A DNA stretch of 40,723 bases from Rhodospirillales bacterium (GTDB lineage: Bacteria > Pseudomonadota > Alphaproteobacteria > Acetobacterales > Acetobacteraceae): NCBI GenBank assembly GCA_025352565.1, contig JANXTF010000009.1:1-40723 (forward strand). Direction: 5' to 3'. Position 1 is the first letter of the stretch; every line of letters starts with the position of its first letter. Below are positions 24,790 to 27,424 of this stretch, in pieces. The notes below the pieces were generated by a model that worked only from the letters and a program-made list of their open reading frames with translations, searched no databases and was not told the DNA's origin. Both the position numbers and the translations under genes were made by a program.

Positions 24790-25059
24790 GTGAACGACGA
24801 ACAGGCCATCATCGCCGAGATCATGCGCCAGGTGGAGGCGCGTGGATCGGACAAGTCCATCTGTCCGAGCGAGGTCGCGCGCGGCCTGGCTCCCGAGGCG
24901 TGGCGGCCGCTGATGAGTGCCGTCCGCCGGGCGGCGGCGAAGCTGTCAGCTTCCGGGCGGTTGGACATTCTCCGCAAGGGCCGCGTGGTTCCGGCGGCCG
25001 AGATGCGCGGTGTAATCCGGCTTCGCGCGCGCGCCACCGCTGACGGGGAGGCCGGCTGA
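24790..25059 (+). CDS. DUF3253 family small protein
   Basis: The 89-residue protein starts at a GTG at 24790, five bases after the EAL gene stop. It shows the DUF3253 pattern: an N-terminal helix with EIMRQVEARGSDKSICPSEVARGL, then EAWRPLMSAVRRAAAKLSASGRLDILRKGRVV. The layout suggests a winged-helix-like fold. Function is unknown. Its stop shares a base with the next gene's ATG. Confidence 0.8.
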   Translation: MNDEQAIIAEIMRQVEARGSDKSICPSEVARGLAPEAWRPLMSAVRRAAAKLSASGRLDILRKGRVVPAAEMRGVIRLRARATADGEAG

Positions 25060-25523
25060 TGCGGCTGCTGCCGATGCTGATGGGCCTGCTGATGCCGGCT
25101 TGCGGCAGCGAGGGGGCGGCCGGGCTGCCGGTTCCGCCGCCGATGGAGTGGGCGGGGCTCCAACGCCCGGGCTCGCCCAACACCGCGCTTGCGGCGCCGG
25201 CCGGCTTCCAGCCGGTGCCGGATGTCGCCACCCGCGTCTATGCCGTGCCGGCCGACACCCTCTATGCCGCGATCCGCAAAGTGGCCGACGCACAGCCGCG
25301 AACCTATGTGGCGGCCGGCTATGACGACCGGCGGCAAATCCACTATGTCGTCCGGTCCGAGACGCTGAATTTTCCCGATCTGGTGACCGTGCAAGTCGGC
25401 GAGAATTCCTCGCTGATCCTGTGGTCGCGCAGCGTGTACGGGCGTTCTGACCTAGGCGTGAACGCCAAACGCCTCGCCACGTGGCTCGCGGCCCTGGACG
25501 CGGCGTTGTCGTCGCCCCACTAG
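25059..25523 (+). CDS. DUF1499 family lipoprotein-like protein
   Basis: The 154-residue protein starts at the ATG at 25059 in a TGATG overlap. A short hydrophobic N-terminus (LLPMLMGLLMPACGS) ends in a lipobox-like L-M-P-A-C, so a lipoprotein anchor is likely. The DUF1499 domain follows: RVYAVPADTLYAAIRKVADAQPRTYV, YVVRSETLNFPDLVTVQV and LILWSRSVYGRSDLGVNAKRLATWLAAL. Function is unknown. The stop codon TAG lies inside the first palindromic element. Confidence 0.85.
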   Translation: MRLLPMLMGLLMPACGSEGAAGLPVPPPMEWAGLQRPGSPNTALAAPAGFQPVPDVATRVYAVPADTLYAAIRKVADAQPRTYVAAGYDDRRQIHYVVRSETLNFPDLVTVQVGENSSLILWSRSVYGRSDLGVNAKRLATWLAALDAALSSPH

Positions 25524-25567
25524 TGGTCCAAACCTGACGCTCGCTACCCGAGCGTCAGGGAATTTGG
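25520..25567. repeat. Imperfect palindromic element 1 (diverged copy)
   Basis: CCTGACGCTCG (25533-25543) pairs perfectly with CGAGCGTCAGG (25549-25559) around a five-base loop, and outer bases CCAAA/TTTGG (25528-25532, 25563-25567) extend it. The left arm begins CTAGTGG at 25520 and reaches CTGACG after seven bases, the same layout as element 2. It overlaps the stop codon of the DUF1499 gene and may also act as its terminator. Confidence 0.7.
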
Positions 25568-25582
25568 CCCATAAAATCAGAG

Positions 25583-25630
25583 CTAGTGGGTAGAATCTGA
25601 CGGATGCTTCCGTCAGATTCTACCCACTAG
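25583..25630. repeat. Perfect 22-bp inverted repeat, palindromic element 2
   Basis: The arms at 25583-25604 and 25609-25630 are exact complements, 22 bases each, around a TGCT loop. The arms begin and end CTAGTGGG/CCCACTAG. The structure lies 30 bases upstream of the ABC transporter start. It resembles REP-type or BIME palindromes and not an intrinsic terminator, because no U tract follows. Confidence 0.85.
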
Positions 25631-25660: not shown

Positions 25661-27424
25661 ATGCGCGGCCTCGGCCCCTTCCTGCGTGACGCCTGGTATC
25701 TGGCACGCCCCTACTTCGTCTCCGAGGAACGCTGGTCGGCGCGTGGCCTGCTGGCGGCCATCGTGCTGCTGAACCTGTCGATGGTCGCCATGGACGTGGT
25801 TCTGAGCTACTGGAACCGGGCCTTCTACAACGCCCTTCAGGACAAGAACTGGCAGGATTTCCTTGACCTGCTGCTGACCTGGAAGGTGACGCCGACCGGT
25901 ATCATGCCCGGCTTCTGCGGCGTGGCCGCGATCTATATCGTGGTGTACGTCTATCGCACCTACCTGAACCAGTGGCTGCAAATACGCTGGCGTCGCTGGC
26001 TCACCCGCAGCCTGCTCGACAAGTGGATGGCGGATCGGGCGTACTACCGCATCAGCCTCGGGTCGGGCACCGGCGCCACCGCGACGGCGGGAACCGACAA
26101 CCCCGACCAGCGCATCTCGGAGGACGCGCGGGACTTCGTGAGGGAGAGCCTGTCGCTCAGCCTCGACCTGCTGTCCAACGTGGTCTCGCTGTTCAGCTTC
26201 GTGACCATCCTGTGGACCCTGTCCGGGCCGTTCGTGCTGCTGGGCGTCGGTATCCCGGGCTACATGGTGTGGGTGGCGCTGATCTATGCCGTGGTCGGGA
26301 CATGGTTCACCCATCTGATCGGGAGGCCGCTGGCGGCACTCAATTTCCGCCAGCAGCGGGTGGAGGCGGATTTCCGCTTCGGGCTGGTGCGGCTGCGCGA
26401 GAACGTCGAGGGCGTGGCGCTGTATCACGGCGAGGCGGAGGAGCAGCGCGGGCTGTCAATGCGGTTCCATGAAGTCGCGACCAACTGGTGGGCGATCATG
26501 CAGCGCACCAAGCTGCTGAACGCGCTGATCGCGGGGTATGGGCAGGCCGCCGGGGTGTTCCCGATCATCGTCGCGGCACCCGGCTATTTCGCCGGACGGG
26601 TGGCGCTGGGCGGCATGATGCAGACGGTAAACGCGTTCGGCCAGGTGCAGGGCGCCATGTCGTGGGTGGTGAACTCCTATAGCGTGCTGGCCAACTGGCG
26701 GGCGACGGTGGAGCGGCTCGCGACCTTCGACCGGGAGATCGCGCGCGCCCGCGCGGCGGCGGATCGCGGCGTCGTCAACGCGGCCGATGGCGAGCTGGCT
26801 TACCGCATGGAAGATGTGACGCTGGCGTTGCCCGACGGCCGCATCCTGATGGAACACGCCGATTTGCAGCTTGAGCGCGGCGCCTCCGTGGTGGTGACTG
26901 GCCGCTCGGGGTCGGGCAAATCAACCTTGTTCCGTGCGCTCGCCGGCATCTGGCCGTTCGGCGCCGGCACGGTGCACCGCCCCCCTGGAACCAGCCTGTT
27001 CCTACCGCAGCGCCCCTACATCCCGCTGGGCACGCTTGCCCACGCGGTCGCGTATCCCGCCAAGCCCGACGACCACGGGCGGCCGGCGATCGAGGCCGCC
27101 ATGCGCCAGGCCGGTCTCGATACGCTGATCCCGCGTTTGGACGACGAGGACAAATGGGCGCAGGCGCTATCGGGCGGCGAGCAGCAGCGGCTGGCGGTGG
27201 CGCGGGCCCTGCTACTGCGGCCGGACTGGTTGTTCCTGGACGAGGCGACCGCGAGTCTCGATCCCGAGTCGGAGGCGGAGCTTTATGCGACGCTCAAGCG
27301 CGAGCTGCCGGACACGACAATCGTGTCGATCGCCCACCGCGCCAGCGTGGTGGCACTGCACGCGCGCCAGCTGGCGTTTCAGCGAGCGGAGGACGGTTCC
27401 GCCCGGCTCGTGATGGGAGCCTAG
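25661..27424 (+). CDS. ABC exporter, SbmA/BacA-like membrane domain fused to ATPase (YddA-type)
   Basis: The 587-residue protein fuses an N-terminal ABC_membrane_2 domain (residues 1-340, about six membrane segments, with SYWNRAFYNALQDKNWQDFL and WLQIRWRRWLTRSLLDKWM) to an ATPase. The ATPase has Walker A GRSGSGKST near residue 414, LSGGEQQRLAVARAL and Walker B WLFLDEATASLD, followed by the switch His in SIAHRAS. Relatives include YddA and the vitamin B12 or peptide transporters of the SbmA/BacA group. Substrate is unknown. The gene follows two palindromic elements and its TAG stop is shared in CTAG with the convergent recQ stop. Confidence 0.92.
   Translation: MRGLGPFLRDAWYLARPYFVSEERWSARGLLAAIVLLNLSMVAMDVVLSYWNRAFYNALQDKNWQDFLDLLLTWKVTPTGIMPGFCGVAAIYIVVYVYRTYLNQWLQIRWRRWLTRSLLDKWMADRAYYRISLGSGTGATATAGTDNPDQRISEDARDFVRESLSLSLDLLSNVVSLFSFVTILWTLSGPFVLLGVGIPGYMVWVALIYAVVGTWFTHLIGRPLAALNFRQQRVEADFRFGLVRLRENVEGVALYHGEAEEQRGLSMRFHEVATNWWAIMQRTKLLNALIAGYGQAAGVFPIIVAAPGYFAGRVALGGMMQTVNAFGQVQGAMSWVVNSYSVLANWRATVERLATFDREIARARAAADRGVVNAADGELAYRMEDVTLALPDGRILMEHADLQLERGASVVVTGRSGSGKSTLFRALAGIWPFGAGTVHRPPGTSLFLPQRPYIPLGTLAHAVAYPAKPDDHGRPAIEAAMRQAGLDTLIPRLDDEDKWAQALSGGEQQRLAVARALLLRPDWLFLDEATASLDPESEAELYATLKRELPDTTIVSIAHRASVVALHARQLAFQRAEDGSARLVMGA

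Follow-up and report, generated by a model that had tools for sequence, protein, structure and literature searches.

In the Correia/NEMIS repeats of Neisseria the two ends of the element pair with each other, and the RIME of rhizobia consist of "two large palindromes". By their descriptions, the closest known systems to the locus studied here are two IS630-type MITEs, RUP and Correia, together with the CIR repeats, a two-arm kind known from Caulobacter and Brucella. RUP, found in Streptococcus pneumoniae and related to IS630-Spn1, is described as 107 bp long and intergenic, with TA-containing targets and IS630-like ends (PMC2229807). Correia/NEMIS (CREE) is likewise given as an IS630-related MITE (PMC2817692), with a form of ~107 bp (PMC2229807) and insertions often at TA; the latter source states its mobilising mechanism as undetermined (PMC2649163). 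For the CIR repeats, the account cited for RUP reports a size of ~110 bp, two arms with a linker, TA termini and a GANTC at the hairpin loop, and says that more information is needed on their mobility mechanism (PMC2229807). In Brucella, the palindromes Bru-RS1/2 (103-105 bp) are repetitive (PMC2267715); they are treated as candidate hot spots of IS711 insertion and not as IS711 derivatives, and IS711 itself duplicates TA in YTAR (PMC2266754). RIME are presented as intergenic repeats whose secondary structure is conserved (PMC2573895). ISY100, a relative of IS630, inserted in vitro almost exclusively at TA (PMC2170065), and according to a title in the reference list of that paper (Tenzen & Ohtsubo 1991), a transposon associated with IS630 prefers the TA within CTAG.

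The window, that is, the whole analysed stretch of 40,723 nucleotides from a Rhodospirillales bacterium (Acetobacteraceae), carries two adjacent palindromes behind a gene for a DUF1499 protein (Table 1). Very probably, these palindromes together form a single MITE (non-autonomous transposon) of 111 bp and of the IS630/Tc1-mariner type, with the insertion and arm pairing accounted for as set out below. Its ends carry IS630-type terminal sequences, CTAGTGG-N7-CTGACG, each apparently doubled as a back-to-back inverted copy, with a linker of ~10 nt joining the two. The usual MITE has a single terminal-repeat stem, whereas this element has two independent hairpins and a linker. Compared by description, it is similar to RUP in size, intergenic position, TA-containing target and ends, but differs from it in the two hairpins with linker and in the CTAG target. 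From Correia/NEMIS, with its end-to-end pairing, it differs in having two separate hairpins. Bru-RS1/2 and RIME resemble it, again by description, as repeated palindromes and as repeated structured intergenic elements, respectively.

Table 1 Features of the two-hairpin element and of its flanking genes, in window coordinates.
Feature	Position	Strand	Basis
Two-hairpin IS630-type MITE (probable), 111 bp, both CTAG copies included	25520..25630	+	Other genome copies; no element at the congener's orthologous site
Left CTAG, target copy; TAG 25521-25523 is the DUF1499 stop codon	25520..25523		G001 orthologue ends in uninterrupted CTAG
Left terminal sequence, resembles IS630-family end beyond the transposase gene 3' end	25520..25549	+	End comparison over 30 nt
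Hairpin 1	25523..25572	+	Folding, covariation, arm comparison
Hairpin 1 core, 11 bp	25533-25543 / 25549-25559	+	Perfect pairing
Hairpin 1 loop	25544-25548	+	Fold
Hairpin 1 bulge, 3 nt	25560-25562	+	Fold
Hairpin 1 outer stem, one T-C mismatch (25527, 25568)	within 25523..25572	+	Fold
Inter-hairpin linker	25573..25582	+	Fold; copies aligned and listed
Hairpin 2, perfect 22-nt arms, CTAG on either end	25583..25630		Inverted-repeat search, fold
Hairpin 2 arms, 4 nt between	25583-25604 / 25609-25630		Perfect inverted repeat
Right terminal sequence, resembles IS630-family end 5' of the transposase gene	25601..25630	-	End comparison over 30 nt
Right CTAG, second target copy	25627..25630		Sequence; single CTAG in G001
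Upstream gene, DUF1499 protein, stop codon within target CTAG	25059..25523	+	PF07386, E 6.7e-12
Downstream gene, ABC transporter (ABC_membrane_2 / SbmA_BacA + ABC_tran)	25661..27424	+	Domain matches

With two mismatches tolerated, the signature CTAGTGG-N7-CTGACG was found at three sites in the window, all of them exact: at 25520-25539 and 25583-25602 on the forward strand, and inverted at 25611-25630. Shuffled windows gave a mean of 0.72 sites, and three sites were reached in 2 of 100. The shared start of both palindromes had been noticed in an earlier, sequence-only reading of the window, which also described the perfect 22-nt arms of the second palindrome, the perfect 11-bp core and outer pairs of the first, and the DUF1499 stop codon inside the latter. 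All of these hold, with a 3-nt bulge to be added to the first palindrome. Both hairpins were more stable than any of 200 shuffles (folding z-scores of -5.80 for hairpin 1 and -9.22 for hairpin 2). At gathering thresholds, Rfam gave nothing in the window beyond two tRNAs, and no match in three loci with IS630-type ends. The same reading had taken the palindromes for two diverged copies of one element. The shared architecture stands, but they are better read as the left and right halves of a single 111-bp composite than as two REP copies, and the different N7s of the two signatures most likely reflect left versus right ends.

The exact pattern occurred 19 times in the 4.5-Mb genome, compared to 0 for a reversed-pattern control; one of the 19 sites, on contig C111, is an IS630 end and not the element. 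BLAST with this region gave 37 matches, and a covariance model of hairpin 1 matched 26 separate places with E-values of 1.1e-5 or lower, so that the further genomic copies expected by the sequence-only reading do exist. Both hairpins, with order and spacing kept, were present at several loci (e.g. on contigs C164, C13, C159 and C39). The copy on C8 has both hairpins with the second half worn, and some copies in the genome retain the left part alone. Outside the source genome, the hairpin 1 model matched 50 other genomes of the family (51/299 with the source genome counted, 35/102 genera, E 0.01) and 10 others among sampled genomes of the class (11/385 with the source genome counted, E 0.001); up to 18 (family) and 14 (class) candidates were scored per genome, and copy numbers are thus lower bounds. 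In the 10 other class genomes, among the 24 loci listed, the second hairpin was recognised by eye in seven and was not visible in three (G046, G340, G609), so a hairpin 1 match is not always a two-hairpin copy. For the site analysis, 78 model matches were reduced to 67 by removing one duplicate locus, eight opposite-strand echoes and two second units, and 17 of the 26 own-genome places entered the left-end, gene-end and GANTC/end analyses. In some copies (L195, L211, L190, and L045 on C46) the hairpin 1 unit is closed by its own CTAG, which suggests that the composite may have arisen from two adjacent palindromic elements that later became mobile as one.

The copies varied in build. The linker/unit 2 start (CTAGTGGAAAATCGAAG, 17 bp) was tandemly expanded inside the element at L026 (G000:C98:4483-4627). 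An extra unit 1 was fused behind unit 2 at L024 (1608-1669, G000:C39), and two unit 1 copies stood in tandem at L172 (2001-2122, G214). A second-unit variant, CTAGTGCTCTGAC, was present in G303 and further genomes. L133, L135 and L174 carried a unit 2 variant of 59 bp with short terminal repeats only (CTAGTGGTGCG...) and without the long hairpin.

Plasmid records gave no match at E 0.01 to a family-type element. Searched with the window element, they gave one matching Methylobacterium record, through the left 30 nt. A 33-nt end query matched 17 plasmid records, 11 of them without an annotated feature beneath the match. Genome contigs scanned with the left 20-mer gave three contigs, none of them by eye a two-hairpin copy. 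On the Methylobacterium nodulans plasmid pMNOD03 (L059, from 2501), a stretch of ~125 bp with inverted CTAGTGGTCCAAATC... ends resembles a plain single-stem IS630-type MITE. On rhizobial plasmids (L060-L063, L065-L068), stretches of ~30 bp matched the left end of IS630 type (CTAGTGGTCAAAATCTGACGCTTGGTACCC type), with no IS630 gene annotated nearby. Annotation there is missing or incomplete, so these could be isolated ends or else belong to elements that lack annotation, as at L064. No description of this two-hairpin family was found in the open-access literature searched, and the matches listed in a literature scan for the end sequences were all unrelated by title.

The family may be identical with or related to the CIR repeats, with a link to GANTC methylation. 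This would be compatible with an IS630-type MITE, and we consider it possible but doubtful. The reported size of ~110 bp, the two arms with linker, the TA termini and the occurrence in alphaproteobacteria (PMC2229807) are all shared, and GANTC was present in unit 1 of 58/67 relative copies. By eye, it sat in the outer stem and bulge and thus outside the loop, the place reported for CIR, and in the own genome it occurred in 1/17 unit 1 copies and 11/17 unit 2 copies, which speaks against this reading.

The insertion of the MITE can be followed at empty sites. The one other genome of the genus in the comparison, G001, had no match to the element. At the orthologous site it reads CACACTAGTCG-acg-CGGCT, where the window has CACTAG-(element)-CTAGTCGCGGCT, and its DUF1499 orthologue stops at a bare CTAG, ending ...CACACTAGTCGacgCGGCT.... 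Seven further own-genome sites were queried against G001. One, on C86, was an empty site, those on C159 and C118 were partly informative, and four were uninformative. At the C86 site, G001 reads AACGGCTAGAACG, with the bare CTAG as the gene's stop, and the source genome reads AACGGCTAG-(element ending CTGG)-AACGG. For C159 and C118, G001 lacks the element and has the two flanks side by side, with diverged junctions; the G001 gene at C118 ends in TGA. Thus, in the window and at one more site, the element occupies a place where the congener has a bare CTAG stop codon. The single CTAG in G001, against one per element end (the right copy on C86 now being CTGG), indicates that the element entered a CTAG and that the target was duplicated; the duplication can be read as TA or as CTAG, which are indistinguishable at the two empty sites. 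Insertion into a CTAG that was a stop codon, with target duplication, would explain the coincidence of element and stop codon. An IS630 transposase, acting in trans, would excise the element and insert it at the TA within a CTAG, with duplication of that TA. At gene ends the duplicated CTAG would preserve the stop codon, and gene-breaking insertions would be lost.

CTAG was ~11-fold depleted in the 270,852 bp of the window and 66 relative loci (70 occurrences vs 799 expected from base composition), and 12/58 control CTAGs served a coding-like frame, from one side or from both, as its in-frame stop. Among the elements, 29 were bounded by CTAG left and right; 16 of these had such a stop at one end, and two others had a different frame running in. 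The difference from the control CTAGs had a Fisher p of 0.0017, calculated over copies that are not independent when they come from one genome or lineage. Forward coding frames entered 32 of 84 left ends (score above 8, a threshold of our own), 18 had reverse coding and 34 were undecided. In 31/32 cases the TAG position was in phase with this forward frame and read TAG (28), TAA (2) or TGG (1). An orientation preference at stop codons, hinted at by the own-genome table, was discarded, because the own-genome search catches truncated copies mainly via their left end; in the 29 full elements the stops were split between left end (9) and right end (7), without preference. CTAG depletion, the roughly one fifth of control CTAGs that are in-frame stops, and the loss of gene-breaking insertions would together place many copies at gene ends. 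Target choice and loss of gene-breaking insertions explain much of the gene-end location, and the excess above control CTAGs leaves room for a further cause.

The sequence-only reading had proposed that the pairing of the arms is a selected structure, visible as covariation. Covariation between the arms was indeed found. In the 78 aligned matches of hairpin 1, 96.6% of cells pair, and there were 156 two-sided pair changes, whereas shuffles gave 44.1 (sd 7.3) and slid structures no more than 19; this count includes all 78 rows (74 distinct), related copies among them, in an alignment fitted to the hairpin 1 model. The own genome and one relative (20 rows) gave seven two-sided cells vs 1.2. In own-genome copies, degenerate ones included, 96.3% of cells pair. 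For hairpin 2, borders could be recognised at 41/93 sites; the 5' arms there were of 33 different kinds, and 662 positions paired, the shuffle maximum being 538. At least 18/20 pairs were formed in 20 of the 41, and some lineages had short terminal repeats only. The 3-nt bulge of hairpin 1 was kept, by eye, in most listed relatives.

Some copies carry an arm that has been rewritten exactly from its partner. In L154 the left arm complements the right one without error over 25 nt, which is not the case in its sister copy L140, and the right arms of L149 and L125 are complementary to the left ones over 24 and 20 nt. The compared sister or related copies have perfect arms of 10-12 nt. Template switching in replication is described as able to create and maintain hairpins (PMC8794818), and rewritten arms are the trace that it would be expected to leave behind. 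Judging from these copies, template switching between the arms would uphold their pairing at least partly, and it may explain part or all of the covariation. Given the exact rewrites, the covariation need not reflect a selected structure. Selection on the structure is possible, and the persistent bulge argues for some constraint.

Such selection could go with a host role in which the hairpins, as part of the RNA, stabilise 3' ends or terminate transcription where genes end, a role that could coexist with transposition. The excess of two-sided changes, the pairing kept even in degenerate copies, the retained bulge and the excess of gene-end stops over control CTAGs are all consistent with it. 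We nevertheless regard this role as unlikely, since the full elements have no orientation preference and arm rewriting by itself is able to yield covariation (PMC8794818). All terminator-like matches lay on the strand opposite to the gene, and a terminator role was rejected for that reason.

The ends of the MITE were compared over 30 nt with those of IS630-family elements. In the window's genome, C4:2771-3922 is a 1152-bp element with CTAGTGG at either end and an intact 364-aa transposase ORF (NF033545 IS630, E 1.1e-75; DDE_3, E 3.8e-18); it has partial relatives on C111 and C137. An IS630-type element on a Paracoccus plasmid has the ends CTAGTGGTCCGAGTCTGACA and CTAGTGTTCTGCACCTGACA and a transposase split over two ORFs. 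The left end of the MITE agreed with left IS ends at 21 (C4), 23 (G017) and 24 (Paracoccus plasmid) positions, and its right end with right IS ends at 20 (C4), 24 (G079) and 18 (Paracoccus plasmid). Ends of the CTAGTG...CTGAC/CTAAC type were found on IS630 elements, with a best agreement of 24/30 on either side. Cross-side comparisons gave 16 to 20 of 30, so the sides were assigned by best match, and for some IS the assignment is ambiguous: the MITE left end scored 20 against the right ends of both C4 and the Paracoccus IS, and the MITE right end scored 20 against the Paracoccus left end, more than against its right end. With this partial side-specificity, the left half (hairpin 1) appears most like left IS ends, and the right half (hairpin 2) like the right IS end of the closest relative.

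After the CTAG, the C4 ends agreed with the MITE at 17/26 (left) and 16/26 (right) positions, equal to the best chance scores among 80,686 window positions, so the resident IS is no more than a candidate helper. The genome assembly, split into 164 contigs, yielded no resident IS whose ends are near-identical to those of the MITE, and a closer partner IS may be missing from it. Relatives of the C4 transposase (E 1e-20 or better) were present in 6 of 12 genomes searched, all 12 with hairpin 1 matches; one of these relatives had only 25% identity. Among eight loci with C4-type transposases, five had a CTAGTG-type end by pattern and three had none (L181, L183, L187). G081, a congener of G303, has the IS630-type end CTAGTGCTCTGAACC next to a transposase fragment. 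The 111-bp element itself has no transposase of its own and many dispersed copies, as is characteristic of MITEs. We infer mobilisation in trans by an IS630 transposase. A transposase of this type most likely moved the element into a CTAG that happened to be the gene's stop codon.

The IS630-type ends, the CTAG target and the empty sites indicate an IS630-family DDE element over the REP/BIME kind suggested by the sequence-only reading. A REP/BIME element mobilised by a REP-associated tyrosine (Y1) transposase would share the paired palindromic units outside coding sequence and the arm covariation, but it is highly improbable and was rejected: PF01797 (Y1_Tnp) had no match in the genome, although the same search was positive in 5/14 control genomes, the element has CTAG at both ends and a single CTAG at its empty sites, its terminal sequences are of IS630 type, its head is CTAG and not of the GTAG/GTGG type described for REPs (PMC2817692), and a GTAG-type head on one side of a short hairpin was not found.

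More speculatively, one ancient IS630-driven two-hairpin family, built of left-end palindrome, linker and right-end palindrome, might underlie the two-arm repeats of alphaproteobacteria (CIR, perhaps also RIME and Bru-RS), with template switching keeping the arms paired and CTAG targeting parking the copies at stop codons. If true, this would give an IS630 source to these two-arm repeats, at least some of which have had a previously unexplained mobility. The MITE account by itself offers an IS630 source for the repeats whose hairpin 1 is matched in 35/102 sampled genera of the family. What sets the element apart from an otherwise known kind, the IS630-type MITE, is its two-hairpin build and its spread. 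The arm covariation of such DNA repeats need not imply selection on RNA structure. A palindrome pair at a stop codon becomes a testable transposon account, in which target choice explains much of the gene-end location of these repeats.
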